From Oscillospiraceae bacterium (GTDB taxonomy: Bacteria; Bacillota; Clostridia; Oscillospirales; Ruminococcaceae): DNA of 49,983 bases. Each line of letters starts with the position of its first letter. Position 1 is the first letter of the stretch. The notes beneath the pieces are model-generated. The model worked only from the letters and a program-made list of their open reading frames with translations. It did not search any database and was not told where the DNA came from. Made by a program: the position numbers and the translations under genes. Positions 7,139-30,691 of this stretch are shown piece after piece. The DNA lies in NCBI GenBank assembly GCA_017547245.1, contig JAFYQD010000005.1, positions 1 to 49,983 of the forward strand, read 5' to 3'.

Positions 7139-8293
7139 TCAGTAACGCAGTTTTGCCAGATTGGTGTCCTGCACAAAGTTCATATAGTTGTACATCAGCA
7201 GAACATCGTCAAAGGGCTCTTCCCCGGCCTGCTGCAGCACAGCGCTGAGGCTGAACACATGACGCAGGTCGACCACCCACACTTCGTCGTAGTTTGCGGT
7301 CAGGAAGGGGGCAAGGCTGTTGCCATAGCTGTCTTTGATCAGCATGACACGCTTGGGGTTTTCCACGCCTTCGTTTACCACAATTTTGGTAAGGCCATGG
7401 TTGCCCCACAGGAAGGAGGCATACTTATCACGAATATCCAGCTTGGAAAGATCGTACATGCCGTCATATTCCTTGCCGTCGATGTTGACATCGGCCACGG
7501 GAAGGTCATACCAGGTGATGACATCCGGCTGAGCGTTGTAAAGCTTTGCCTTGCTGTGGTAGGTGCCGTAGAAGTCGGGCTGTTCTTTGGCATATGCCTT
7601 GAACTGAGAAAGGTCAACAGGCGTCATTCCCTGACTCTGCACATATTCGGCATAGGCGTAGTATGCACCAAGGGTTGTCCAATGGTGGTCGGTGCGGTAG
7701 TAGATATATTCGCCGCTGTGTTCCTGCAAGGGCTTCAGCAGCTCCAGCTTGCTCAGGTTTTCGCCATCAATGCGGGAATACATTTCGTCGATAAGGGGCT
7801 TCTGTGCCACATTGGGGAAAGCGGAAGGAATCTTATCGGAAAGAACTTCGTAAGAGTTGGGAATGACCGCCAGAGTAACATGCTGGTCGGGGTATTTTTC
7901 CAGATACTCGTTTACAAAATTCAGGTTCTTTTCCAGCTGCTGACGGTTTAGCGAGGTATACTTTTCAAACAGATATCCTTCTTTGCCAAAGGATACACCA
8001 TTGTTCTCGATTTTTTGGAGTACCGATTCGGAAATGGACTTCATGGTAATCCATCGGTCACGCCAGATAAACTGGTCGTTGACATATTCCTCATACTCCA
8101 TCGTGTATTCGTTGGCCACCAGCTTTTCTACCGTAAGCTTAGGGCGCTGGTTAAGCACACGGTTTTCCATTTCGGAAAACTTGCGGTTGGTCGAGGTCAT
8201 ATCCATACAGAATACAAAAACCAGAAAAACCACAAACAGGCAAAGCAGCGGATAACGAACTACTTTTTTCAGGTTGGTCACAATTTTTTTCAC
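7139..8293 (-). CDS. DHHW-family (AlgJ/AlgX-like) exported acyl-transfer protein
   Basis: A 384-residue protein with one N-terminal membrane segment (about residues 13-30) and an extracytoplasmic domain of the SGNH/AlgJ-AlgX type. The DHHW signature lies at residues 202-205 within YRTDHHWTT, and a KDSYGNS block (residues about 320-326) carries the likely nucleophilic Ser region. It follows the MBOAT gene by 15 bp. In alginate and related systems such a pair moves an acetyl group across the membrane (MBOAT) and onto a surface glycan (AlgJ-like). Here the accepting polymer is unknown; a wall glycan or exopolysaccharide is the natural inference. Confidence 0.87.
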   Translation of the reverse strand: MKKIVTNLKKVVRYPLLCLFVVFLVFVFCMDMTSTNRKFSEMENRVLNQRPKLTVEKLVANEYTMEYEEYVNDQFIWRDRWITMKSISESVLQKIENNGVSFGKEGYLFEKYTSLNRQQLEKNLNFVNEYLEKYPDQHVTLAVIPNSYEVLSDKIPSAFPNVAQKPLIDEMYSRIDGENLSKLELLKPLQEHSGEYIYYRTDHHWTTLGAYYAYAEYVQSQGMTPVDLSQFKAYAKEQPDFYGTYHSKAKLYNAQPDVITWYDLPVADVNIDGKEYDGMYDLSKLDIRDKYASFLWGNHGLTKIVVNEGVENPKRVMLIKDSYGNSLAPFLTANYDEVWVVDLRHVFSLSAVLQQAGEEPFDDVLLMYNYMNFVQDTNLAKLRY

Positions 8294-8308
8294 AGCTGCT
8301 TCACCTCC

Positions 8309-9706
8309 TTAGAAGCGGAAATAGAGGAAGGGGTTGTAGGTGGCATCCACCAGATAGGCCACCGAAAGCACCAGGATGCCCAACAACAGCACTATGCGCA
8401 AAGGCTGATACCAGCCCTTGCCCATTGCCTCCAGCTTTTTGGAAAGATAGGGTACGATGGGAGTGGAAAAGATGCAGCCCAACAGCAGCACCACGCCATA
8501 GTTGCGCAGGTAGTAAATCCAGCTGCCGCCGGAATTGGCAGAAAGGCTGAACATACGGCTAAACAGCACACCCAGCTGGCCAAGATCGGTGACGGCAAAC
8601 AGCGCCCAGCTGATCATAACCAGCAGCACCAGATAGACATGGCTGATGATTTTATGGCGCTTGAGGAAATCACCGATAAAGTATTTTTCCAGCACCAGGA
8701 ATACAAAGCTGTAAAGACCCCACAGAACAAAGTTCCAGTTGGCACCGTGCCAGAAACCGGTAAGCGCCCAAACCACAAACATGTTGAAAATGTGACGGGA
8801 AGAGCTGACGCGGTTGCCGCCCAAAGGAATATAGACATATTCACGGAACCAGGAACCAAGGGTCATATGCCAGCGTCTCCAGAACTCGGTAACCGAACGG
8901 GAGATGTAGGGGTAGTTGAAGTTTTCGGGGAATTCGAAGCCCAGCATGCGGCCAAGGCCGATGGCCATCAGCGAATAGCCCGAGAAGTCGAAGTAAATCT
9001 GCAGGGTGTAAGCCAGAACGCCCAGCCATGCCAAAGGGGAGGAAATGTTGGCAAAGCCGATGGATTCCACCTCGGTCCAAAGGGCGCCGCAGCTGTTGGC
9101 AATAAGCACCTTGCGGCCAAGGCCCATAATAAAGGTGGAAATGCCGCTTTCAATGCGGTCCAGCTTCAGGGTACGGGTCTTGAGCTCAATGGCAACATCG
9201 GTATAGCGTACAATGGGGCCGGCAATCAGCTGAGGGAACAGCACAACAAAGGCGCCAAAGTCGATGATGTTCTTTTCGGCCTCCACCTTGCCGCGGTAAA
9301 CGTCGATGGTGTAGCTCATGGTCTGGAAGGTATAGAAGCTGATGCCCAAAGGCAGGGTGATGGATATAAAGCCGATGGAAGTACCCAACAGAGCGTTGAT
9401 GTTTTCGATAAAGAAATTGGTGTATTTGAAAAAGCCGAGCATACCCAAATTAAAAAACACCGACATCAGCAAAAACAGCTTGCGTGCGGTTTTATTCTCG
9501 CCATATTTGGCAATGCCGTTGGAAGCCACATAGTCCACCACAATGGATGCCACCATAATGGGGAAATAGCGGATTTCGCCCCAGCAATAGAAAATCAGGC
9601 TGAGAATAAGAAGGGTCAGGTTTTTCAGCTTTTTGGGTACCAGATAGTACACCAGAAAAGCAATAGGCATAAAGCGGAACAAAAATAAAATACTGCTGAA
9701 TACCAT
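8309..9706 (-). CDS. MBOAT family O-acyltransferase (AlgI/DltB/PatA-like)
   Basis: A 465-residue polytopic membrane enzyme of the membrane-bound O-acyltransferase family. Landmarks are the LPLGISFYTFQTMSY stretch, QIYFDFSGYS, the FWRRWHMTLG motif and the catalytic His in LTGFWHGANW. It would carry acyl groups from a cytoplasmic donor across the membrane to its DHHW partner encoded just downstream. An upstream lipoprotein gene completes a three-gene set. A GGAGGAC site precedes ATG 9706, and a small GC-rich hairpin (9718-9734) lies between this gene and the lipoprotein stop codon and may tune relative expression. Confidence 0.92.
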   Translation of the reverse strand: MVFSSILFLFRFMPIAFLVYYLVPKKLKNLTLLILSLIFYCWGEIRYFPIMVASIVVDYVASNGIAKYGENKTARKLFLLMSVFFNLGMLGFFKYTNFFIENINALLGTSIGFISITLPLGISFYTFQTMSYTIDVYRGKVEAEKNIIDFGAFVVLFPQLIAGPIVRYTDVAIELKTRTLKLDRIESGISTFIMGLGRKVLIANSCGALWTEVESIGFANISSPLAWLGVLAYTLQIYFDFSGYSLMAIGLGRMLGFEFPENFNYPYISRSVTEFWRRWHMTLGSWFREYVYIPLGGNRVSSSRHIFNMFVVWALTGFWHGANWNFVLWGLYSFVFLVLEKYFIGDFLKRHKIISHVYLVLLVMISWALFAVTDLGQLGVLFSRMFSLSANSGGSWIYYLRNYGVVLLLGCIFSTPIVPYLSKKLEAMGKGWYQPLRIVLLLGILVLSVAYLVDATYNPFLYFRF

Positions 9707-16429: not shown

Positions 16430-17740
16430 ATGAAGTTTATTCTGGCCGTAATTGTGGGCCGTATGGTGCGCTTTGTCGGCAAGTTTGTCAACCGCGCCAC
16501 CAACCTGCCCGGCAGCATTGCCCTGCGCATCTGCCCCGATCTTCTTTCCCGCATGATCTTTGACGGCAAGGTTATTGCCGTTACCGGCAGCAACGGAAAG
16601 ACCACCACCACCAACATGATTGCTCATACACTGCGCCGGCAGGGCTATTCGGTAGCCATCAACACCGAGGGCAGCAACCTGACCCCCGGCATTGCCACCA
16701 CCCTGCTGTGTGCCTGCAAAATGAACCGTCATGTTCCTCAGGATTTTGTTGTTCTGGAAGTGGACGAACGTTTTACCCCCATTGTTTTCAGCCACTTTGT
16801 GCCCAACGTGTTTGTGGTGAACAACCTGTTCCGTGATCAGGTGGTACGCAACGGCCATCCCGACATTGTTTACGACAAGATTGCCGCAGCCGTTCACCCC
16901 GGCACCACCATGGTGGTAAATGCCAACGACCCCATCAGCCAGCGTCTGGCCGACAACAGCCCGCGTGTATATTTTGGCATGGAACGCACCGTCCGCTCGG
17001 CCGAAAAGCAGGTATTCCTCACCGACGACTGCAAGGTGTGCCCCAAGTGCTTCCACAAGCTGCACTACAACTACTACCATTACAATCACATCGGTGATTT
17101 TTACTGCGAACATTGCGGTTTCAAAACTCCCGAAGCAGATTACCTTGCCACTGAAGTAAACTTTGAGGCCGACACCTTCAAAATCAACGGACAGCCTGCC
17201 AGCGTTACTTACAAAACCACCTTCCACACCATCAACTCCACCGCAGCCGTGGCCGCCTGTGTCACCGCAGGTCTTACCATGCAGCAGGCCCTTGATGGCA
17301 TCGCCACCTTCCAGGTAAGCAATGTGCGCTATGACGAAATGCAGCTGTGCGGCCGCAAGGCTGTACTGATGCTGACCAAGCAGAACTCGGCCTCTTTGGA
17401 CCAGTCCATCAGCTACGCCTTGGAACAGCCCGAAGAAAAGACCGTTCTGCTGTATGTAAACAACGTGCTGTATTCCGGCTTCCGCGATATTTCGTGGCTG
17501 TATGACGTCACCTTTGAACGCATGAAGGGCAAGGTTGACAAGGTGGTGTGCAGCGGTGACCGCGCCTACGACCTGGCCGTGCGCCTGCGCGAAGGCGGTT
17601 TTGCCGACAGCGACCTTGTGGTTGTGGATGAACTGAGCCGGGCCAAACAGCTGGTGCAGGAAAACACCAAGGGAGCCCTTTACATTCTGGCTGCCTCGGC
17701 CTTTGGCAACGAGGACGGCATTCTGGAGGCGCTGAAATGA
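16430..17740 (+). CDS. MurT-like Mur ligase (lipid II isoglutaminyl synthase ATPase subunit homologue)
   Basis: A 436-residue Mur ligase-family protein with the MurT layout. There is an N-terminal NLPG segment, a P-loop GSNGKTTTT at residues 53-61, LEVDE near 110-114, FRDQ near 134-137, a four-Cys zinc ribbon (Cys204, Cys207, Cys226, Cys229), and a C-terminal DUF1727 domain. MurT uses ATP to activate the D-Glu carboxylate of lipid II for amidation by ammonia from GatD. The ATP site looks complete, and the RDISW aspartate (Asp353) that would complete the partner's triad is present. However, the KNPAG motif of the DUF1727 domain reads KQNSAS at 317-322. The TGA stop overlaps the start of the GatD-like gene (ATGA). 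It is probably a specialised or diverged paralogue. Confidence 0.87.
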   Translation: MKFILAVIVGRMVRFVGKFVNRATNLPGSIALRICPDLLSRMIFDGKVIAVTGSNGKTTTTNMIAHTLRRQGYSVAINTEGSNLTPGIATTLLCACKMNRHVPQDFVVLEVDERFTPIVFSHFVPNVFVVNNLFRDQVVRNGHPDIVYDKIAAAVHPGTTMVVNANDPISQRLADNSPRVYFGMERTVRSAEKQVFLTDDCKVCPKCFHKLHYNYYHYNHIGDFYCEHCGFKTPEADYLATEVNFEADTFKINGQPASVTYKTTFHTINSTAAVAACVTAGLTMQQALDGIATFQVSNVRYDEMQLCGRKAVLMLTKQNSASLDQSISYALEQPEEKTVLLYVNNVLYSGFRDISWLYDVTFERMKGKVDKVVCSGDRAYDLAVRLREGGFADSDLVVVDELSRAKQLVQENTKGALYILAASAFGNEDGILEALK

Positions 17741-18450
17741 GAGATATCACCATTCTTCATCTGTATAACGACACCCTTGACCTGTACGGCGACTATTTCA
17801 ACGTAACCGCCCTGCGCAACCGCATTGTGGAAATGGGCGGCAGCTGCACCGTGCTGACCGCCAACCTTGAGGACGAAGACATTCCTCTGGAACAGGCCGA
17901 TCTGGTCTATATGGGACACGGAAAGGCCCGTAACCTGGCCGCCGTTGCCCCCCATTTTGCCAAGTTTGGCCAGCGCATCATCGATGCTGTTGAAAACGGA
18001 AAGATGTTCTTTGTCACCGGCAACAGCCGTTTGCTGTTCGGCAAAGAGTTTGAGGGTGTAACCGAGGGTCTGACCCATCAGGGCATCGGCCTGTTTGACT
18101 ATACCGGCGCCGAAACCAACAAGGTTTTTACCAGCGACGTTTTTGGCCGCTGCACCTTTGACCAGACTGTTCAGACCTACGGCTTTATCAACCGCACCCA
18201 GCACATTGTGGGGCAGAACACCTCCCCCCTGTTCAACGTAGAACAGGGCGCCTGCGACGGCACCGAGGCCACCGGGGTGGAAGGCACCCACTATAAAAAC
18301 TTTTATGCCACCTGGCAGATGGGTCCCATTCTGGAACGCAACCCCGCCCTGCTGCGCCACCTGCTGACCACCCTGTTGGGTGACGAAATGGGCGAATACG
18401 ACGACACCTTTGCCCGCAAGGCTCTGGAACGTGTTTTGGCCGAAAAGTGA
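17737..18450 (+). CDS. GatD-like class I glutamine amidotransferase homologue lacking catalytic Cys and His
   Basis: A 237-residue protein that aligns along its whole length with GatD, the glutaminase partner of MurT: ITILHLYNDTLDLYGDYFN at the start, and THYKNFYATWQMGPILERNP near the end. Where GatD has the nucleophile in ICGGYQ, this protein has VTGNSR with Thr94. Where GatD has YLHGP with the catalytic His, it has WQMGP with Met195. The oxyanion-region GGG is also changed (MGHGK). All of this is seen directly against GatD as I remember it. Glutamine hydrolysis by the standard mechanism should be impossible, so the protein may be a structural or ammonia-channel partner, or act in another reaction. 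Intact frame and ATGA coupling to the MurT-like gene argue against decay. Confidence 0.86.
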   Translation: MRDITILHLYNDTLDLYGDYFNVTALRNRIVEMGGSCTVLTANLEDEDIPLEQADLVYMGHGKARNLAAVAPHFAKFGQRIIDAVENGKMFFVTGNSRLLFGKEFEGVTEGLTHQGIGLFDYTGAETNKVFTSDVFGRCTFDQTVQTYGFINRTQHIVGQNTSPLFNVEQGACDGTEATGVEGTHYKNFYATWQMGPILERNPALLRHLLTTLLGDEMGEYDDTFARKALERVLAEK

Positions 18451-20658: not shown

Positions 20659-21819
20659 TCAGTTCTTGAAAATTCTAAGAAGGGTGGTCCAGTCGTCTTC
20701 GTCGATATCATTTTCCTTGGTATCGGCAGCAGGAGCTTCTTCAGCAGCAACTTCCTGTGCATGCTGTGCGGCAGGCTGTTCTGCGGCAGCCTTTTCCTCA
20801 GCAGATGCGGCAGCCTTATCGGCAGTCCATACAGGCAAGCTTACGCCGGGGAAATTTTCATTTTCAAAGTTGGTGGCGATAACGGTGACCTTCAGTTCAT
20901 CGTTCATGGTTTCGTCAAAGGCAACGCCCCAGATGTAGTTTACATCAGGATGTGCAGCTTCGGAAATCAGGTTTGCAGCCTCGGAAATTTCGTTCAGGCC
21001 GATATCCTGAGAAGCCACGAAGTTGACCAGAACGCCCTTGGCACCATCGATGGAGGTTTCCAGCAGGGGCGAAGAAATGGCGGCGCGGGCAGCCTTTTCA
21101 GCCTTGCGGTCACCGGTGGCCTGTCCAACACCCATATGGGCATAGCCGGCATCCTTGACAATGGTGGTAACGTCGGCAAAGTCGACGTTAATCATACCGG
21201 GCAGGTTGATGAGGTCAGAAATACTTTGTACAGCCTGACGCAGCACGTCGTCGGCCAGTGCAAAGGCGTTGAAAAGGGTAATCTTTTCTTCGGTGATATG
21301 GTGCAGACGCTCGTTGGGAATTACCACCAGAGCATCTACATTCTTGCGCAGTTCGGCAATGCCTTCATCGGCCTGAGCCATTTTGCGCTTGCCTTCAAAT
21401 TCAAAAGGCTTGGTAACCACGCCAACGGTCAGAATGCCCATTTCCTTGGCAATCTGTGCCACGATGGGTGCGCCGCCGGTACCGGTGCCGCCGCCCATGC
21501 CGGCGGTTACAAATACCATCTGGGTATCTCTGCCGATGGCTGCAGCAATATCGTCACGGCTTTCTTCGGCAGCCAGACGGCCTTCTTCGGGTTTGCCGCC
21601 TGCGCCGGTACGCTTGCCGCCAATGTGCAGCTTATAGGTAGCCTGAGAATACTTCAGGGCCATGGGGTCAGTGTTGATGCTGACATATTCGGCAACACTG
21701 CTCATTCCGGAAGTGACCATGCGGTTTACGGCATTTCCACCGCCGCCGCCAACACCAATGACCTTAATAGGCACGATGTAATCCTGATCAAAGTCCAGAT
21801 CAATATTATTCATAGCCAT
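20659..21819 (-). CDS. ftsZ: Cell division protein FtsZ
   Basis: A 386-residue tubulin-like GTPase that forms the division ring. It shows [17 protein letters not shown] at the N-terminus, the tubulin signature GGGTGTG near residue 109, [10 protein letters not shown], and the T7 region. An Ala/Glu-rich linker of about 50 residues leads to an acidic C-terminus ending [12 protein letters not shown], which keeps only the outline of the usual DIPxFLR-type conserved tail. It has its own promoter within the cluster. No ftsA lies beside it. Confidence 0.97.
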
Positions 21820-21892
21820 GTTTTCTTCCTCCCCATTTGCAGTTTATAACAGCGGGAATAACGCTGAAAAGCATCATGATAGATTTAAGATA

Positions 21893-21921
21893 ATTTTATC
21901 AGATTTCATAGTATGTTTCAA
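21893..21921 (-). promoter_or_regulatory. Promoter of ftsZ
   Basis: Minus strand TTGAAA (21921-21916), 17 bp, TAAAAT (21898-21893), with a leader of about 65 nt. Confidence 0.68.
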
Positions 21922-21991
21922 TAGAAAACCGTTGATTTAAGGCGACAAACAACAGCTTTTTTCTGCAGCAAACCACAACAGATAGTTCCGA

Positions 21992-22026
21992 AACAAAAAC
22001 ACCCCGCAAAATCTTGCGAGGTGTTT
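21992..22026 (-). terminator. Terminator between ftsQ and ftsZ
   Basis: Hairpin with arms AAACACC and CGCAA paired to TTGCG and GGTGTTT (one mismatch), followed by a minus-strand T5. It separates ftsZ from the rest of the dcw transcript. Confidence 0.78.
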
Positions 22027-22028
22027 GC

Positions 22029-23051
22029 TTATTCTTCCCAATCGTCGTTTTCGTCTTCCGCAAGAGCGGTCTGAACGGTTTTTTCGGGTTCCAGTTCGGC
22101 CGGGTCCACATAGGTTCCGGTTTTTTCATCAAACACATAGTGGTCGGGAATGGAAATGTCGGGAAGGTTGGTTTCGGGATCTGCCCAAACTTTTCCCACC
22201 GTTCCGGAATAAAGCACACCTCGGAAATCGGCCTCCAGCTGATTGTCTATCACTTCACGGGTCAGCTTCATCTTTCGGACCAGTTCGCTTTCGCTGCCAA
22301 ATTCGATGACAATGTTTTCGCTGTATTGGGCCTGAATGTTATAGCGGTCGCTGAAATCAACCTTTTGCAGAACAAGGCCGCTTTCTTCCAACGCCTGCAG
22401 GGTATAGTTGGTCATTCGGATGATTTCGGCTGCTTCCTCGGCTGCGGCCAGTTCTTCTTCGGTGGCCTTTTTGGGGGCCTGTGCCGGATAATCACCGGGA
22501 GTGCCCTTCAGTTCGGCCCCCACAATGGGCAGAAGGTCTGCCGGCAGCTGTGCGTCACGCTCCAGAATGCGGCCGTCGGCACTAACAAGGGTATAGCCGC
22601 CGTTGTCTTCCTCCAAGGCAGCCGCAGGTTTTGCCTGGGTTACCTCCACCACAATTTCGGGCGGATAGGAACGCTTGATCGCCACATCTTCCACATAGGG
22701 CAGAGCCTTGATTTTTTCCTTTGCGGTTTTCAGGTCGACACGGAACAGGTTATCCCCAACAGAAATGCCGGTAAGCTGCTGCACCGCCGCAACGGGGTAT
22801 TTGCTGACACCCTTGACATTGATGGCGGTAATTTTGAAAAACACCGTAAGGGAAAGAACCACTCCCACCACAGTCAGTATAAACAGCACAAGAATATAGT
22901 AGAGGATTCGGTTGCTTTTATGGCGCTTTCTGCGGCGCTTTTTGTTGTTGGGGCGAACAGGAGCCTGGTTCTGAACAGGCTGAACCTGCTGTGCGGCAGC
23001 TTGTCCGCCGCTGCGGCGTCTTCTTTTCTTTTTTCTGCCAAACAAGCCCAT
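22029..23051 (-). CDS. ftsQ: Cell division protein FtsQ/DivIB
   Basis: A 340-residue bitopic division protein. A basic cytoplasmic tail (KKKRRRR, KKRRRKRHK) is followed by one membrane helix at about 50-72, a POTRA domain (ITAINVKGVSKYPVAAVQQLTGISVGDNLF) and the FtsQ/DivIB beta domain. The C-terminus extends into an acidic tail ending DDWEE. It works with FtsL and FtsB in the divisome. GGGGAGG precedes the ATG. Confidence 0.93.
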   Translation of the reverse strand: MGLFGRKKKRRRRSGGQAAAQQVQPVQNQAPVRPNNKKRRRKRHKSNRILYYILVLFILTVVGVVLSLTVFFKITAINVKGVSKYPVAAVQQLTGISVGDNLFRVDLKTAKEKIKALPYVEDVAIKRSYPPEIVVEVTQAKPAAALEEDNGGYTLVSADGRILERDAQLPADLLPIVGAELKGTPGDYPAQAPKKATEEELAAAEEAAEIIRMTNYTLQALEESGLVLQKVDFSDRYNIQAQYSENIVIEFGSESELVRKMKLTREVIDNQLEADFRGVLYSGTVGKVWADPETNLPDISIPDHYVFDEKTGTYVDPAELEPEKTVQTALAEDENDDWEE

Positions 23052-23094
23052 AACCTATCCTCCCCTCTTCTGTTATGTTCAGGGGCTGCGCAGC

Positions 23095-24345
23095 TCACAC
23101 CCTTGTGATCTGCGCCCCCAGTTTTCTCAGGTTCAAATCAAAGTTTTCATACCCGCGGGCAATGTGATGGATGCTGCACAAACGGCTTTCGCCCTGGGCG
23201 GCCAAAGCAGCCACCGCCAAGGCGGCGCCGCCCCGCAGGTCGGTACAATTCATCACTGCGCCCTTCAGTTTGGGTACTCCTTCCACCACGGCCACCCGCC
23301 CTTCCACACGGATGTTGGCACCCATGCGCACCAGCTCGCCCACCTGTTTGTATCGGCTTTCAAAAATGGTTTCGATAAAGACCGATGTTCCCTCGGCCAG
23401 CGCCGCCATGGCCAGCATGGTGGACTGGGCATCGGTGGAAAAGCCGGGATAGGGCATTGTGCGTACTGTACCAAGAGCGGTAAGGCGTTCCGGCGCTTTC
23501 AGGCAAATGGTGTTTTGGCCATACTGCATACGGCAGCCAGCTTCTTCAAACACAGGCAGCACCGCCGCAAGATGGTCGGCACGCAGGTGGGTCAGGGTAA
23601 TTTTTCCGCCGGTGACTGCCGCAGCGCAAAGATAGGTGGCAGCGGCAATTCGGTCTGGAATCACACGATGTTCGCAACCGATCAGTTTGTCAACACCGTG
23701 TATCAGTATGCTGCCGTCAGCGGCAAAACGGATATCAGCCCCTGCTGCATTAAGAAAGTCTGCCAAATCAACAATTTCGGGCTCACGGGCCGCATTGCTC
23801 AGGCAGGTTTCGCCCTTTGCGGTGCAGGCCGCAAGCATAACATTTTCGGTAGCCCCCACGCTGGGGAAAGGCAGGGTGATGCGTGCGCCCTTCAGGCCAT
23901 TTGGGGTGGTGCAGCGCAAAACGCCTCCGCTTTCATCGATGACAACCCCCAGCCGGCGCAGGGCGGCCAGATGCATGTCGATGGGGCGCGGCCCCAATTC
24001 ACAGCCGCCGGGCATGCTTACTTCCGCCATGCCATAGCGCCCTATCACAGCCCCCAGAAAAACAATGGAAGACCGCATGGCCCTCATTAACCGGTCGGGA
24101 ATGCGGTGGTCTCCTTTTTGGGTAAATGTCACCGTTACGGTTCCATCCTGCTGGGTGGTGGAACATCCCAGATAGTGCAGAATGTTGCGTGCGGCAGCAA
24201 CATCGGTAAGGTCGGGGCAGTTATGTATGGTTGATTTTTCGCAAAGCAGTGCCGCCGCCAAAACGGGCAGCGCGGCATTTTTTGCGCCATGAACCGCCAA
24301 TTCGCCCCGCAGTGGGGTCCCCCCCTGTATCAGATATTCGGACAT
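23095..24345 (-). CDS. murA: UDP-N-acetylglucosamine 1-carboxyvinyltransferase
   Basis: A 416-residue EPSP synthase-fold enzyme that transfers enolpyruvate from PEP to UDP-GlcNAc, the first committed step of peptidoglycan synthesis. GAKNAALP near residue 20 and MPGGCELGPRPID with Cys115 (the fosfomycin-reactive residue) are present. ATG 24345 fits the homology start; ATG 24357 is possible but overlaps AAAGG. It lies between murG and ftsQ in the dcw cluster. Confidence 0.95.
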   Translation of the reverse strand: MSEYLIQGGTPLRGELAVHGAKNAALPVLAAALLCEKSTIHNCPDLTDVAAARNILHYLGCSTTQQDGTVTVTFTQKGDHRIPDRLMRAMRSSIVFLGAVIGRYGMAEVSMPGGCELGPRPIDMHLAALRRLGVVIDESGGVLRCTTPNGLKGARITLPFPSVGATENVMLAACTAKGETCLSNAAREPEIVDLADFLNAAGADIRFAADGSILIHGVDKLIGCEHRVIPDRIAAATYLCAAAVTGGKITLTHLRADHLAAVLPVFEEAGCRMQYGQNTICLKAPERLTALGTVRTMPYPGFSTDAQSTMLAMAALAEGTSVFIETIFESRYKQVGELVRMGANIRVEGRVAVVEGVPKLKGAVMNCTDLRGGAALAVAALAAQGESRLCSIHHIARGYENFDLNLRKLGAQITRV

Positions 24346-24441
24346 ATGAAGACTCATCCTTTCGGTGGATGGCTGGGGTGTAATGCCCCGCATCAACATC
24401 ATATGCCGCGCTCCGGGTTGCGGTTACTATATAAATTTCGT

Positions 24442-25569
24442 TTATCGTTCGGTTTTGCCTATCAAAGCCAGAACTTCGTCGGCAATGCGGCGGTTTGCGT
24501 CCAAAATGGCCATCTGTGCGGCATTGGCACCCAGTTCTTCCAAGCGACCGGGCTGACTTAAAATCCCGTTAACCACATCGCAAAGGCTCTGGCCGCTCAG
24601 GTCCTTTTCTTCCAGCACAACGGCGGCCTGACGGTTCTGGAGTGCCATGGCATTGTGGTACTGATGATTTTCGGCCACATTGGGCGAAGGAATCAGCACC
24701 GAAGCCTTGCCGGCGGCCTGCAGTTCGCTGATGGATGTTGCACCGGCACGGCTGATTACCAAATCGGCTGCAGCCATACAGTCGGGCATATCGTTGATGT
24801 ATTCACGGATGTCAAGGTGTTCGTTGGGATAGTTTGCGCCCTGTTCACGCAGGAACTGGGGCACATCTTCCACGCCATAGGCTCCTGTGGCATGGATGTG
24901 ATGAATATCATCCCGATGGCTGTTTTGTGCCATCAGGGTCGAAACAGCCTCGTTGATGCGGTCGGCGCCCAAGCTGCCGCCGAAAGAGAGAATACAGATG
25001 CGCTGGTCTACGCCCAGTCTGGCACGGGCAGCAGCACGGTCGCTGGTGAAAATTTCCTGGCGGACAGGATTGCCGGTAACAATGTATTCACGGCCCTGAG
25101 GCAGGTGTTTTTGGGCAGCCTCGGTAGCCAGCAGAACCTTGTCCACACGGGAACAAAGCGCCTTGGTGGTAAGTCCGGGAAAAGCATTCTGCTCGTGGGT
25201 AACGGTGGGGATGCCCATTTTGGCGGCAGTGGCCACCACGGGGCCGCTGACATAACCGCCTGTACCCATAACCACATCGGGGCCAAACTCTGCAATCAGC
25301 TTTTTGGCCCGGGAAGAGGCAGTCAGCAGCAGTGCAGCCGCCTGAATGTTCAGTTTAAGGTTGCGCAGACTGGGTTTGCGCTGCAGACCCATCACTCGGA
25401 TGGGCAAAAAGGCATAGCCTGCCTGAGGAACCAGACGGGCTTCCATTCCGCGCGGATTGCCGGCAAAACGAATGTCCGCTTCGGGATACTGGCTGCGGAT
25501 ATAATTTGCCACCGCCAGGGCAGGATTGATGTGACCGGCGGTTCCGCCGCAGGCAAACAAGATTTTCAT
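24442..25569 (-). CDS. murG: UDP-N-acetylglucosamine-lipid I N-acetylglucosaminyltransferase
   Basis: A 375-residue GT28 glycosyltransferase at the inner membrane face that makes lipid II from lipid I. The N-terminal CGGTAGHINPALA loop, THEQNAFPG near residue 125, SFGGSLGA near 194, SRAGATSISEL near 270 and AENHQ near 300 are all present. Length is typical. It follows ftsW by 38 bp with AAAGGA upstream. Confidence 0.96.
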   Translation of the reverse strand: MKILFACGGTAGHINPALAVANYIRSQYPEADIRFAGNPRGMEARLVPQAGYAFLPIRVMGLQRKPSLRNLKLNIQAAALLLTASSRAKKLIAEFGPDVVMGTGGYVSGPVVATAAKMGIPTVTHEQNAFPGLTTKALCSRVDKVLLATEAAQKHLPQGREYIVTGNPVRQEIFTSDRAAARARLGVDQRICILSFGGSLGADRINEAVSTLMAQNSHRDDIHHIHATGAYGVEDVPQFLREQGANYPNEHLDIREYINDMPDCMAAADLVISRAGATSISELQAAGKASVLIPSPNVAENHQYHNAMALQNRQAAVVLEEKDLSGQSLCDVVNGILSQPGRLEELGANAAQMAILDANRRIADEVLALIGKTER

Positions 25570-25607
25570 AAAATCGTCCTTTCAAAAACAGCTGCTGAAT
25601 GGTTTGC

Positions 25608-26753
25608 TTATTCTTTGGGCAGCGAACTTTGGCGCGACACCGACAGGATGACCCCCATCTGGGCCAGCAGCATAAGCAAAGCGGTGCCGCCATAGGAGAA
25701 GAACGGCATTGAAATGCCGGTGTTGGGAAGTATCTTGGTAACTACAGCGATATTAAGAATGACCTGCAGACCCACCTGTATGGTAAGACCCATCGCCAGC
25801 ATAGAACCAAAGCGGTCACGTGCCTTCAGGGCAATGGCAAAGCCACGCCAGATAAGCAGCGCAAACAGAAGAATGATGAACACCGCTCCAACAAAACCAA
25901 GTTCTTCGCAAACAACCGCAAAAACAAAGTCGTTCTGCGGTTCGGGCAGATAGAGATATTTTTGACGGGATTGACCGATGCCCAAACCCAGCAGCCCGCC
26001 CGAAGAGATGGCATAAAGCGACTGGATGGTTTGGTAACCTGCGCCCTGGGGATCCAGGAAGGGATCACGCCAATAGGCCAGACGGGTGGAGGCATAGGCG
26101 ATGATTTCCTCGTTGGTTGCCGCATAGGCAAGAAAAGCCAGCACGACAATGCCGACAGGAACAAACCACTTCAGGCTTGTGCCGCCCACATACATCATAA
26201 TAAAACCGATGGCGCATATCAAAACGGTAGCGGACAGATGGGGTTCCAAAACAAGCAGCATAACAATGGGACCCAGCACCACCCCAAAGGGCAATATACC
26301 GTATTTGAAGGTTTTCATTTTGGAATAGTTGACTGAAATAAGATGCGCATAGGTAAGAACGATCGTAAACTTCGCAATTTCAGAAGGCTGGAAGGTGATA
26401 AAACCAAGGTTTATCCACCGGTGAACATAGTTGATTTCCGGCATGAACAGAACCACGACCAGCAGCACAAAGGTTGCCGCAAGCAGCACCGGAATAAACT
26501 TGCGCAGCCAGTGGTAATCGGCGAAAGAAACAACCAGCATAGCCGCCACCCCGATCACCGCAAAGAACAGCTGGCGGGTTATAAAATGAAAGCTGTTGTC
26601 AAAATAGTAGTAAGCATAGGCATAGCTGGCCGAAAACATCATAACCAGACCTATGGTAAGAATGATCAGCACCAGTACCAGAAAGCTGTAGTCCACGGTG
26701 CCACGTTCGGCCTTTATCGGTTGGCCGTCATTCTTTATTTTTCTGCCAAACAC
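25608..26753 (-). CDS. ftsW: SEDS peptidoglycan glycosyltransferase FtsW/SpoVE
   Basis: A 381-residue polytopic SEDS protein that polymerises lipid II with a partner class B PBP. It has about ten helices, the extracellular AYWRDPFLDPQGAGYQTIQS block, EPQNDFVFAVVCEELGF and the C-terminal NTGISMPFFSYGG, all typical. The start is a GTG at 26753 after GGGGGG. Position between mraY and murG supports FtsW or SpoVE rather than RodA; the usual murD between mraY and ftsW is missing. Confidence 0.93.
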   Translation of the reverse strand: MFGRKIKNDGQPIKAERGTVDYSFLVLVLIILTIGLVMMFSASYAYAYYYFDNSFHFITRQLFFAVIGVAAMLVVSFADYHWLRKFIPVLLAATFVLLVVVLFMPEINYVHRWINLGFITFQPSEIAKFTIVLTYAHLISVNYSKMKTFKYGILPFGVVLGPIVMLLVLEPHLSATVLICAIGFIMMYVGGTSLKWFVPVGIVVLAFLAYAATNEEIIAYASTRLAYWRDPFLDPQGAGYQTIQSLYAISSGGLLGLGIGQSRQKYLYLPEPQNDFVFAVVCEELGFVGAVFIILLFALLIWRGFAIALKARDRFGSMLAMGLTIQVGLQVILNIAVVTKILPNTGISMPFFSYGGTALLMLLAQMGVILSVSRQSSLPKE

Positions 26754-26786
26754 CGCGGTCCCCCCTTTCTTTATGATACGCTGTGC

Positions 26787-27800
26787 TTACAGCATGGTGG
26801 CTGCCAAAACGGCAAGTGCGCCGCCGCAGATGCCCACTATCGAGAACATGATAACAATCTGAACTTCATTCATACCGCACATCTCAAAGTGATGATGGAT
26901 GGGCGACATTTTGAAAATGCGCTTGCCGTGGGTAAGTTTGAAGTAGGTGGTCTGAATAATAACCGACAGAACCTCGCAGATAAAGACGATGCCCACAGGA
27001 ATCAGGAAGATGGGCAAGCCCAGACCAAAGGCAATGGCAATCAGCATACCGCCCAGGAAAAGCGAACCGGTATCGCCCATAAACACCTTTGCTGGATAGA
27101 AGTTCCACACCAAAAAGCCGATGCACCCGGCAGCCAAAGCGGCGGCCATCAATGCGGCGCCCCACAGCTGCAGCATGGTGGCAATGATCATAAAGGACAA
27201 CGCTGCCACAAACACAAGCGAGGAAGCCAAACCGTCCAGACCGTCCGAAAGGTTTACGGCATTGACTGTACCGGAAATGATGATGACAATGGCAAAGGGA
27301 TAGAACAGCCAGCCAAGATCAAGCTGACCCATAAAGGGAATATCAACAATGGTGGAAAGACCGCCGTTAATCTGCATTGCAACGATATAGGCAGCCGAAA
27401 CGGCCAGCTGCATCAGCATTTTCTGTTTGGCAGTAAGGCCCATGTTCTGCTTTTTGACCACCTTGATGTAGTCATCCAAAAAGCCGATAAGACCAAACAA
27501 CAGCGCCATAATCATGCCATAAAGCACCCGTGCGCCCACAATGGCTGCGTTGGGCTGTTCGGCAAGGCCGGTGGCCTTGGCCATGATGGGCCAAGCAACC
27601 GCTACCGCAACGGTAATGCCCAGCATAAACATGATGCCGCCCATGGTTGGGGTACCCTGCTTTTTTTCGTGCCACTTGGGGCCAATGTCCAGAATGGTCT
27701 GGCCATATTTCAGCTTGCGCAGCCAGGGCACAATGCCCAGACCCGAAATTGCCGTTACGGCAAAGGCCGCAACCGCGGCAACAATCATCCATGTATTCAT
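26787..27800 (-). CDS. mraY: Phospho-N-acetylmuramoyl-pentapeptide transferase
   Basis: A 337-residue polytopic membrane enzyme that makes lipid I from UDP-MurNAc-pentapeptide and undecaprenyl phosphate. Visible motifs are KQGTPTMGG near residue 48, FLDDYIKV near 108, NAVNLSDGLDGLA near 185 and SPIHHHFE near 305. AGGAG lies ten bases before the ATG. Confidence 0.96.
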   Translation of the reverse strand: MNTWMIVAAVAAFAVTAISGLGIVPWLRKLKYGQTILDIGPKWHEKKQGTPTMGGIMFMLGITVAVAVAWPIMAKATGLAEQPNAAIVGARVLYGMIMALLFGLIGFLDDYIKVVKKQNMGLTAKQKMLMQLAVSAAYIVAMQINGGLSTIVDIPFMGQLDLGWLFYPFAIVIIISGTVNAVNLSDGLDGLASSLVFVAALSFMIIATMLQLWGAALMAAALAAGCIGFLVWNFYPAKVFMGDTGSLFLGGMLIAIAFGLGLPIFLIPVGIVFICEVLSVIIQTTYFKLTHGKRIFKMSPIHHHFEMCGMNEVQIVIMFSIVGICGGALAVLAATML

Positions 27801-27847
27801 ACGTCCGAAACTCCTTTTCCGTCACCAAAACATTTGGGGTCGGTTTT

Positions 27848-29218
27848 TCATTTGCTTTCCAGCTTTTTCTGCAAAGGCTGCAGGGCTTCTTCCAGCTTCA
27901 TGCCGCGGCTTGCCTTTGCCCACACCACATCGCCCTCTTTTATGCTGCCGCAAAGGGTTTCTGCCAAATCGGCCTTATCTTCAAACCAATATACCTCAGG
28001 GCTGCCGTTTTGTTTGGCGCCCTTAGCATACATTTGGCCCAGCTGACCATAGCAGTAAAGGACATCGGCAGATTCTGCGGCCAGCCGCCCCACCTGCAGA
28101 TGGCTTTGTTCCGCTATCTCGCCCAACTCCAGCATATCGGCCAGAAGGGCGATGCGGCGTCCACTGCAGGGATAAGTTTTCAAAGTATTAAGCGCAGCCT
28201 GCATGGAATCGGGGCTGGCGTTATAACAGTCTTCCACAATGGTGACCCCACCGCAGCGCACCACATGCTGGCGCATGCCCGAGGGCTGATAGTTCTGCAG
28301 TGCCCGGATACAGCTTTCAGCAGGGATGCCCAGTTTGCGGCCAACACCAAATGCCGCCAAGGCATTCAGTACATTGTGGCGTCCCACACAGGGAATGACC
28401 GCCGACCACTGCTGGCCCTCGGCCATGATAACAAAGGAAGTGCTGTCCCCTTCCTCTTTTATTTCTCCGCCGCGGATTGCGCAGGCAGGATTATCCACAC
28501 CGTAAAAAATCACATCAAGGCGCGGCTGCTGCACCGTTGCCAGCAGGTCGTTGTCACCGCACAAAAACAGGGGTGCGCCGTCTTCCAGGCCCTCGCATAG
28601 TTCCAGCTTTGCCTGCAGAATGTTTTCACGGCTGCCCAGCCTTTCGATGTGGGAAACACCAATGTTGGTGATAACACCGATGGTGGGATGCAGCGCCAAG
28701 GTCAGGTCAAGTATCTCGCCCAAGCCCTGCATACCCATTTCCACCACGGCTGCGCCATGGTCTGCGGTCAAACCGTAAACAGTAGCAGGAACGCCGATTT
28801 CGTTGTTCTGGTTGCCCTCGGTTTTGTGGGTGTTAAAGCCGGCCGAAACCACACAGGCAATGAAGTCTTTGGTGGTGGTTTTGCCTACGCTGCCGGTTAC
28901 GGCAATCAGGTTCAGCTCGGGGAATCGGTCACGATAAATCGAGGCCATATCCAGCAAAGCATCCTGGGTATCCATGACCTCCAGCAGTTTATCCGGGTCC
29001 ACATCCTCTACGGGCTGGTGTACCACCGCCGCCACAGCGCCCTGTTCCAAAGCGGCTTTGACAAAACGGTGTCCGTCAAAGTTTTCGCCCTTGAGGGCAA
29101 CAAACAAACAGCCCTGTGTCAGTTTTCGGGTATCGGTACAAATATGGGTAATGTCTGCCTCCACGGCGGCTTCTGCCCCCATTGCGGCGGCAAGCAGACT
29201 AAGTTTTACAGCTTCCAT
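27848..29218 (-). CDS. murF: UDP-N-acetylmuramoyl-tripeptide--D-alanyl-D-alanine ligase
   Basis: A 456-residue Mur ligase adding D-Ala-D-Ala to the UDP-MurNAc tripeptide. The N-terminal TDTRKLTQGCLFVALKGENFDGH, the P-loop GSVGKTTTKD near residue 110, TEGNQNNEIGVP near 135 and EDCYNASPDSM near 318 are typical. ATG 29218 is chosen from homology and the GAGAGGA site; the ATG ten codons earlier lacks support. Confidence 0.95.
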   Translation of the reverse strand: MEAVKLSLLAAAMGAEAAVEADITHICTDTRKLTQGCLFVALKGENFDGHRFVKAALEQGAVAAVVHQPVEDVDPDKLLEVMDTQDALLDMASIYRDRFPELNLIAVTGSVGKTTTKDFIACVVSAGFNTHKTEGNQNNEIGVPATVYGLTADHGAAVVEMGMQGLGEILDLTLALHPTIGVITNIGVSHIERLGSRENILQAKLELCEGLEDGAPLFLCGDNDLLATVQQPRLDVIFYGVDNPACAIRGGEIKEEGDSTSFVIMAEGQQWSAVIPCVGRHNVLNALAAFGVGRKLGIPAESCIRALQNYQPSGMRQHVVRCGGVTIVEDCYNASPDSMQAALNTLKTYPCSGRRIALLADMLELGEIAEQSHLQVGRLAAESADVLYCYGQLGQMYAKGAKQNGSPEVYWFEDKADLAETLCGSIKEGDVVWAKASRGMKLEEALQPLQKKLESK

Positions 29219-29257
29219 GGCCTTCCTCTCCGGCGGGAACACCGCCACTGGTTTGGC

Positions 29258-30691
29258 TTATTCTTTGCTCAACAGGCTCTGCACAATAACCTTTTCATCA
29301 AAATAGATGGTTTCATCCTTCAGAACCTGATAGTCCTCGTGGCCTTTTCCGGCCAGAAGAAGGATATCATCCTGCTGGCGATTTTGCAAGGCCCACAAAA
29401 TGGCTTCGTACCGATTTGGCAGCACCTTGCAGGGAACACCGCTGCCCTCTATTCCGGGCAGTGCGTCGTCAATGATGGCCTGTGGGTCTTCGTCACGGGG
29501 ATTATCGGATGAAAGAATAATATAATCGGAACCTTCGGCCACAGCTTTGGCCATTTTGGGACGTTTGGTGGCATCGCGGTTGCCCGGGCAGCCAAACAGG
29601 GTAACAATTCTGCCCTTGGCAAAGGGACGAAGGGCAGCCAGAATTTTCTCCAGACCGTCGGGGGTATGGGCATAGTCACGAATGATAAGGCCCTTGTCGT
29701 CGCTGTGGATGACCTCAGCACGGCCTTCCACACCCAGACAGTTGGTCAGGCTTTGGCAAACCTCCTCCAGCCCAAGGCCAAGGCCCACGCAGCAGGCGGC
29801 GGCAGCCATTGCATTCGAGACCGAAAAATCGCCCGGCATGGAAAGTTTTACCCGGGAAATAACCCCTGTGCCCACCACCGCAAAGCTGCTGCCCAACTGG
29901 GTGGGCTGCACATCGCTGGCGGTATAGTCGGCCTGATGGCTGCTGGTAGAGAAGGTGACCGAAGGACATTCAATTTCTTCCAGCAGGCGGCGGCCTGTGG
30001 GGTCATCCAGATTGATGACCGCCTTATCGCACATATCAAACAGACGCTTTTTGGCCTGATAATAGTTTTCCATGGTGTGGTGGTAGTCCAGATGGTCCTG
30101 GGTGAGGTTGGTAAACACCGCCGAAGCAAAGCGGCATCCCTCCAGCCGCCGCTGGTCCAACCCATGAGAGGACACTTCCATCACAGCATATTCACAGCCG
30201 GCCTGCACCATACGGGCAAAGGTGCTTTGCAGCACCATAGGGTCGGGTGTGGTGTATTTGGCAGGGATAATCATATCCCCGATTTCGGTATGAACGGTAC
30301 CGATGAGACCGGCCTTGCGGCCGCAATCGGTCAGAATATGGTGAATGAGGGTGGTGATGGTGGTTTTGCCATTGGTACCGGTTACCCCAACCAGTTTCAG
30401 CTTGGCAGCAGGGTTTCCGAACAGGTTGCCGCAGATGATGCCATAGGCAGCACGGGTGTTTTCCACAAGCACCTGGTTTTCAAGGCCAAGGTCACGCTGG
30501 CAGACCACGGCGGCTGCGCCCTGTTCCACCGCTTTGGCGGCATAGTTGTGGCCATCGGCCTTTTCGCCCACCATGCATACAAACAGGTCACCCGGCTTTA
30601 CCTGTCGGGAATCGATGATGACAGAACCGATGGCGCAATCGGCAGGAAGCCGGCTGCACTGCAGTCCTTCAAGCAACTGGTATAAATTCAT
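29258..30691 (-). CDS. murE: UDP-N-acetylmuramoyl-tripeptide synthetase, meso-diaminopimelate type
   Basis: A 477-residue Mur ligase adding the third amino acid of the stem peptide. It has IDSRQVKPGDLFVC at the N-terminus, the P-loop GTNGKTT at 105-111, TTPDP near 147 and MEVSSHGL near 171. The DNPR motif at 396-399 is the known marker of meso-diaminopimelate specificity (lysine-adding enzymes differ here), so the wall is predicted to be of the m-DAP type. Confidence 0.95.
   Translation of the reverse strand: MNLYQLLEGLQCSRLPADCAIGSVIIDSRQVKPGDLFVCMVGEKADGHNYAAKAVEQGAAAVVCQRDLGLENQVLVENTRAAYGIICGNLFGNPAAKLKLVGVTGTNGKTTITTLIHHILTDCGRKAGLIGTVHTEIGDMIIPAKYTTPDPMVLQSTFARMVQAGCEYAVMEVSSHGLDQRRLEGCRFASAVFTNLTQDHLDYHHTMENYYQAKKRLFDMCDKAVINLDDPTGRRLLEEIECPSVTFSTSSHQADYTASDVQPTQLGSSFAVVGTGVISRVKLSMPGDFSVSNAMAAAACCVGLGLGLEEVCQSLTNCLGVEGRAEVIHSDDKGLIIRDYAHTPDGLEKILAALRPFAKGRIVTLFGCPGNRDATKRPKMAKAVAEGSDYIILSSDNPRDEDPQAIIDDALPGIEGSGVPCKVLPNRYEAILWALQNRQQDDILLLAGKGHEDYQVLKDETIYFDEKVIVQSLLSKE

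Follow-up and report, generated by a model that had tools for sequence, protein, structure and literature searches.

In the Clostridia surveyed here, the ligase partner MurT appears remodelled in all four clades (A to D) of MurT-GatD-like pairs whose GatD has lost its glutaminase residues, and not in the sporadic losses read. A member of clade A lies in the window, the whole 49,983-nt stretch analyzed from an Oscillospiraceae bacterium (contig JAFYQD010000005.1), and judging from its residues this pair probably takes ammonia, or another amine, from elsewhere than GatD. MurT-GatD pairs modify the cell wall and were described in Gram-positive bacteria; the dead form is shared by this gut bacterium with many relatives.

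The pair is composed of a MurT-like Mur ligase gene (16430..17740, 436 aa plus stop) and a GatD-like gene (17737..18450, 237 aa plus stop), both on the forward strand, like the features within them described below, and coupled by an ATGA in which the TGA stop of the first overlaps the ATG start of the second (17737..17740). Such a coupling of two homologues, proposed in the first-pass annotation, was borne out by the open reading frames and by family and structure searches. The MurT-like protein matches PF08353 and PF08245 above their cut-offs, NF045635 below its curated cut-off (2.6e-62, family search) and the MurT of PDB entry 7q8e with 6e-57 in a sequence search of the structure database. 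Its 211 bits miss the NCBIfam equivalog cut-off for MurT of 800 bits, a threshold that says little, since none of 58 class-level genomes reaches it, canonical ones included. The GatD-like protein matches PF07685 above the cut-off and the GatD models NF045636 (7.5e-21) and NF052463 (2e-18) below their curated ones. For both proteins, the closest solved relatives are the corresponding subunits of S. aureus and S. pneumoniae.

The loss of both glutaminase catalytic residues, claimed from the first reading of the gene, holds: VTGNSR (18013..18030) replaces the nucleophile elbow ICGGYQ and brings no Cys, and Met195 (18319..18321; WQMGP for YLHGP) stands under the catalytic His189. The earlier placement of Thr94 at the Cys94 position, on the other hand, is off by one residue. 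The GatD alignment of 162 rows (160 loci plus two reference sequences) puts Gly95 (18019..18021) under Cys94 and Thr94 under Ile93, and a pairwise alignment with S. aureus GatD agrees, whereas the one with S. pneumoniae chain 6fqb opens a gap, which would place Thr94 at Cys94. Whichever the register, the predicted elbow is left without a nucleophile. In addition, GHGK (17914..17925) replaces the GGG-x oxyanion motif and Val130 (18124..18126) the glutamine-capturing Arg128 of S. aureus GatD, so that elbow Cys, His before GP and capture Arg are all absent from a protein that is glutaminase-dead by sequence and whose gene keeps the expected place, directly downstream of murT and overlapping it. 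Neither finding that would have overturned the first reading was obtained: no Cys reaches 50% at any position of the clade A GatDs, and the close homologues of the window GatD are themselves non-canonical.

The ligase half presents a different picture. The P-loop VTGSNGKTT that binds ATP (16580..16606) and the zinc-ribbon insertion with its four Cys at 204, 207, 226 and 229 (17039..17116) are intact, and the middle domain with this P-loop, the Mg-binding Glu/Asp/Glu, the acceptor Asn and the MurT_C domain are all present. The canonical loops DE(A/S), DQLDR(Y/N/F)GE and KNPxG are absent. In D112-E113-R114 (16763..16771), the Mg-binding pair is intact and is followed by an Arg typical of clades A to D, where canonical proteins have Ala, Ser or Gly. 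The loop FRDQVVRNGH (16829..16858), whose commonest canonical counterpart is FRDQLDRYGE, retains D136 and R140, has D139 and E143 substituted, and carries Asn141. The change of KNPAG to KQNSAS (17378..17395), noted at first reading, amounts to the KNPxG loop with one residue inserted. Finally, Asp353 in RDISW (17483..17497) corresponds to Asp349 of S. aureus MurT, the third residue of the putative GatD triad.

Both genes of the pair are under purifying selection, with dN/dS values against the nearest relative of 0.10 for gatD and 0.11 for murT, in keeping with the initial view of a preserved GatD partner. On these values a pseudogene or an artefact was rejected. The window assembly (1.23 Mb, 56% complete) contains one MurT_C and one GATase_3 match, both belonging to this pair; no second canonical murT-gatD pair was found in it, which at 56% completeness does not prove absence from the genome. 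Regarding congeners, assembly G163 (94% complete) has one GatD match, a copy 89% identical, and G073 (99% complete) has none.

A genome search of the window's family found GatD matches in 69 of 247 genomes, and 70 of the 74 matched places were read (those in G133, G173 and G139 and the second one in G071 were left unread), 17 with Cys and His and 53 with neither. At the class level, MurT_C occurs in 212 of 391 genomes, 131 of which had a locus taken; a GatD frame was not found in six of these 131 loci (L109, L118, L121, L264, L265 and L299). The set of 160 loci with a GatD frame includes the 70 family places (the window among them), the 30 best class-level loci, another 58 loci (from 61 loci of 58 genomes, three having no GatD frame), and L004 and L005; duplicates (L001-L003, L006 and L167-L175) were removed before counting. 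Among the 160 GatDs, 55 carry both catalytic residues and in the other 105 the Cys-His pair is not intact, with His retained in two of the latter (L107 and L166), although the shares of dead forms in this set are not prevalences, as the 58 genomes were picked mostly for a low MurT_C score. From 40 additional class-level loci, 37 GatDs were obtained, of which 32 have Cys and His, one is cut off before the His and four have lost Cys or His. According to the genome search, some of the GatD or MurT matches (L028, L122 and others) contain in-frame stops, and in L166 (G248:C37) MurT and GatD are fused in one open frame of 863 aa, with Gly at the Cys column, the His retained, and KNPAS and RDVSW in the MurT part. 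Actinomycetota were considered as another group that might harbour the dead form, with a GatD-model match in 93 of 198 genomes at E 1e-6 (the weakest may be other amidotransferases), but the eight best loci, which were read, all grouped with canonical pairs; L005, from a genome labelled as an actinomycete MAG, is a dead member of clade B.

The predicted glutaminase loss is not a private mutation of the window. Ninety-nine of the 105 non-intact GatDs, namely those with a usable MurT and not sporadic, fall in clades A (22, including the window), B (36), C (27) and D (14). Both Cys94 and His189 are lost in all 99 rows, and Gly occupies the Cys94 position in 97 of them; the capture Arg is retained in 58 of the 63 rows of B and C and lost in all those of A and D. 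A conserved clade, a question raised at first reading for the Thr/Met form, exists, but Thr/Met is not its form: besides the shifted Thr, the His column of clade A reads Met in 10 and Leu in 12 of 22 GatDs. In L026 (clade A) and in L036, L038 and L005 (clade B), a Cys directly precedes the elbow Gly (FCGG, FCGN, ACGN), and the catalytic His is missing.

The MurTs of the four clades look intact but rebuilt. Residues N83, E110, D112, E113, D136 and R140 (window numbers) are retained in 99 of 99, and 97 have all four zinc cysteines. Arg114, after the Mg-binding Asp-Glu, occurs in 93 (21/22 in A, 35/36 in B, 23/27 in C and 14/14 in D) and in none of 53 canonical MurTs, and Asn141, in the loop facing GatD, in 94 versus 14 of the 53. 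One or two residues separate Lys317 from Asn319 in all 99 cases, against none in any canonical protein. Asp139 is lost in 98 of the 99 (0/53 canonical) and Glu143 in 96, whereas the residue equivalent to S. aureus Asp349 is found in 22/22 rows of clade A and 21/77 of B, C and D. The first-pass annotation had seen the KQNSAS change and proposed that MurT was altered too, but the remodelling across all four dead clades was only glimpsed in it. Apart from the Thr94 register, its observations are upheld, a partial confirmation overall.

Sporadic losses, in turn, were found beside a MurT whose loops are canonical. The Cys is missing in those of families f48, f18, f37 and f59 and present in that of f32. 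They comprise L112, L117 and L119 in f48; L107 and L270 in f18 (genus g149), with Ser for Cys94 and the His kept; L292 in f37 and L296 in f59, each with Gly and His; and L289 in f32, where the Cys is retained and His189 is replaced by Asp. That L107 and L270 come from two genomes of one genus suggests a genus-level loss on a canonical-loop MurT. Where the whole MurT was read (f48 and L107), it shows DEA, DQ(M/L)DRY, a K-N loop without insertion (KNPAG in f48, KNSMG in L107) and Asp349; neither Arg114 nor the loop insertion is present in any of the three f48 rows or in the L107 row.

In a tree of MurT plus GatD, canonical pairs of Clostridia, the eight pairs of Actinomycetota and four sporadic dead pairs form one side with an SH-aLRT support of 100, and L107, L112, L117 and L119 are nested among canonical pairs. 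Support is starred for each of clades A, C and D and amounts to 88 for B (97 in the first such tree). When MurT was analyzed alone with the signature loops removed, the split was recovered with a support of only 52, so the evidence for the deep split is not independent of the trait columns. All were quick trees without bootstrap, and the first MurT plus GatD tree did not include rows L048, L074, L108 and L166. The active glutaminase state is probably the ancestral one, since related class I glutaminases carry Cys and His (PMC6113224).

The different kinds of pair do not seem simple replacements of one another, because at least seven genomes hold two of them: canonical and C coexist in two genomes, C and D in another two, and canonical and D, A and C, and B and C in one each, a lower bound, as second MurT matches of some genomes (e.g. 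G261 and G397) were left unread. The window pair is located near ftsZ-, ftsQ-, murG-, ftsW-, mraY-, murF- and murE-like genes (20659-30691), assigned by eye, with the murE match supported. At a distance from them, 8309-9706 encodes what by eye is an MBOAT-type O-acyltransferase, beside an AlgJ/DltD-like protein (7139-8293), likely a polysaccharide O-acylation gene pair (7139-9706). A conserved third partner was sought by clustering the neighbours in 62 loci of clades A to D, and, MurT and GatD aside, no family occurs in more than seven loci; gene picking found MurT and GatD themselves in 58 and 57 of the 62, so neighbours may be missed too. The most widespread is an ABC-type ATPase (by eye; seven loci of three clades), followed by a glmM-like gene (by eye) that adjoins clade D pairs or lies one gene away in 6 of 14 loci, and the remaining clusters occur in five or fewer.

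The window MurE carries DNPR, which we take to be the specificity motif of the DAP type. A DNPR MurE was found in 35 of the 52 genomes of clades A to D read (12/12 in A, 12/17 in B, 9/14 in C and 2/9 in D) and not in the other 17 (0 in A, 5 in B, 5 in C and 7 in D), with G116 counted in A, G523 in C and the MurE of G252 not included; the genome search yielded no MurE match for G039, G043 and G248. A peptidoglycan bridge of group B, with the bridge residue on D-Glu and a non-diamino acid instead of DAP at position 3, is thus not favoured for the window, but it is possible for clade D and the exceptions in B and C. Second MurE-like proteins without DNPR (EDP, DDP, CDS and similar) were seen in eight genomes of clades A, B, C and D (L240, L236, L231, L223, L242, L244, L208 and L238).

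The explanation tentatively placed first is a working MurT-type ligase with a non-catalytic GatD subunit, which would amidate the D-Glu of peptidoglycan precursors from free ammonia. MurT would activate the alpha-carboxyl of D-Glu in the lipid-linked precursor as an acyl phosphate, GatD would be needed only for docking and shaping, and the amide nitrogen would come from free ammonia in solution instead of glutamine hydrolysed in GatD. In the S. aureus study (Muench et al., PMC3266927), GatD-C94G is reported to lose the glutamine-dependent activity while NH3-dependent amidation of lipid II at pH 8.5 is unaffected, and the concerted action of MurT and GatD is required whatever the nitrogen donor, GatD being needed even with ammonia (PMC6085368). 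Given this precedent, the need for both proteins and the Gly of 97 out of 99 rows of clades A to D, a supply of free ammonia is the simplest reading. The S. pneumoniae MurT mutants at N85, D112/E113, D136 and R140 are described as having lost or lowered activity, and D139A and E143A as having minor effects (PMC6085368); the residues lost in clades A to D (D139 and E143) are precisely those with minor effects, and the retained D136 and R140 those whose mutation lowers activity. The glutaminase seems dispensable as well, because its residues have also been lost on the canonical-loop MurTs of f48, f18, f37, f59 and f32. However, the S. aureus enzyme does not use NH3 at pH 7.5 (PMC3266927), so that ammonia use in the cell would require some adaptation beyond that enzyme. 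Moreover, Arg114 and the insertion seem unneeded for life without a glutaminase, since f48 and L107 lack them, and the occurrence of C or D beside canonical pairs in three genomes, and of A, B or D beside C in four, would be odd if all performed the same amidation.

These last points lead to the reading second in rank and nearly as likely, a possibility to be taken seriously: a new type of ligase, in which the MurTs of clades A to D would join another amine (an amino acid or a primary amine) to the alpha-carboxyl of D-Glu, and GatD would help to form the amine site or merely hold the C-terminal domain of MurT. The active-site changes common to the four dead clades (Arg114 in 93/99, Asn141 in 94/99 and the insertion in 99/99), with Arg114 and the insertion in 0/3 rows of f48, 0/1 of L107 and 0/53 canonical ones, would fit a new substrate, as would the two kinds coexisting in seven genomes, and the capture Arg kept in 58/63 rows of B and C despite the lost Cys and His would suit a protein that still binds an amino acid. 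The lack of a DNPR-type MurE in seven of the nine clade D genomes read also makes an unusual stem peptide possible there. Nevertheless, Arg114 could serve other ends, the donor is not indicated by any neighbour family recurring in more than 7/62 loci, and the DNPR of the window MurE disfavours the bridge of group B. Rather unlikely, by comparison, is the same chemistry on another acceptor carboxylate, such as the carboxyl that is free in meso-DAP or one on some other polymer of the envelope: coexistence with canonical pairs would suit it, and the change of DEA to DER follows the Mg-binding pair that was modelled beside the acceptor carboxylate in canonical MurT (PMC6085368), but 99/99 rows retain both the Asn contacting the acceptor (N83) and the Mg-binding residues, and the glmM-like neighbour in 6/14 clade D loci fits the peptidoglycan pathway and says nothing on the acceptor. 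The retention of a gene without its catalytic residues could also mean that GatD is a regulatory pseudoenzyme sensing a metabolite or restraining MurT, with no ligation depending on it. We consider this improbable, since the S. aureus system needs both proteins whatever the donor, which makes a structural role a simpler reason for retention, and the capture Arg is lost in all rows of A and D. Least credible by far is a decaying paralogue or an assembly artefact, for which the 56% completeness of the window assembly and the missing GatD match in the 99%-complete G073 could be invoked, against dN/dS values of about 0.1 in both genes, the 89% identical copy in another assembly (apparently the record of G163) and a clade A form present in 22 loci. 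In any case, of the options put forward at first (ammonia-fed amidation, a regulatory pseudoenzyme or a different ligation), the evidence favours a working ligase over a regulator, and that first interpretation is partly supported.

The operon is described as widespread in Clostridiales by Morlot et al., the MurT/GatD tree of 229 sequences by Lupo et al. (PMC11915815) portrays bacteria as having mostly one murT, and the Bulleidia paper (PMC12786226) describes a complex MurT phylogeny; the accessible portions of these three works make no mention of a glutaminase-dead GatD. Nor was a publication on such a GatD in Clostridia found among the matches listed by the literature search, which covers few subscription papers. 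A broader proposal, no more than possible at present, is that clades A to D constitute a deep branch of their own within MurT-GatD, distributed over many clostridial families. Its remodelled ligase, acting together with a pseudo-glutaminase, would couple to the stem peptide of peptidoglycan some amine that is not ammonia derived from glutamine, and gut Clostridia would thereby have at least one undescribed D-Glu substituent. According to published abstracts, GatD/MurT makes the D-isoglutamine found in peptidoglycan and is under study as a drug target, and NOD receptors sense muropeptides with D-Glu/DAP (PMC11382707); in the table of the latter work, as far as available, no peptidoglycan type is listed for most genera of Ruminococcaceae and Oscillospiraceae. 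Should the nucleophile be something other than ammonia, an unknown cell-wall chemistry would be present in common gut bacteria. As 53 of the 70 family places read are glutaminase-dead, it would be unsafe to name these pairs lipid II isoglutaminyl synthases by homology, and inhibitors of the glutamine site would not be expected to act on them.

The window pair resembles the MurT/GatD lipid II isoglutaminyl synthases of S. aureus and S. pneumoniae (6gs2, 7q8e and 6fqb) in its two-gene order, Mur-ligase middle domain, zinc ribbon and MurT_C domain, and its GatD is homologous to theirs over nearly the whole length, retaining Tyr17-Gly18-Asp19 and the C-terminal GP...NP motif. Unlike them, it lacks the glutaminase Cys and His and the capture Arg, has a changed oxyanion GGG, and shows DER, RN and K-(x)x-N for the DE(A/S), R(Y/N/F) and KNPxG of known MurTs. 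Because the defining glutaminase residues are absent, the pair is best regarded as a homologue of MurT-GatD and not yet as a member in function. With the S. aureus GatD-C94G described in PMC3266927 it shares a Gly at the nucleophile position, from which no glutamine hydrolysis would be expected, although in that construct the rest of GatD and MurT is unchanged and NH3-dependent activity is known for the mutant only. The sporadic dead pairs are like the window in having lost Cys, His or both, and unlike it in a MurT whose K-N loop has no insertion; this MurT also keeps Asp349. Finally, the mammalian carbamoyl phosphate synthetase I offers a likeness from outside the family, a retained dead glutaminase domain on an ammonia-using synthetase, although there the synthetase is unrelated and the enzyme is a single chain from animals.
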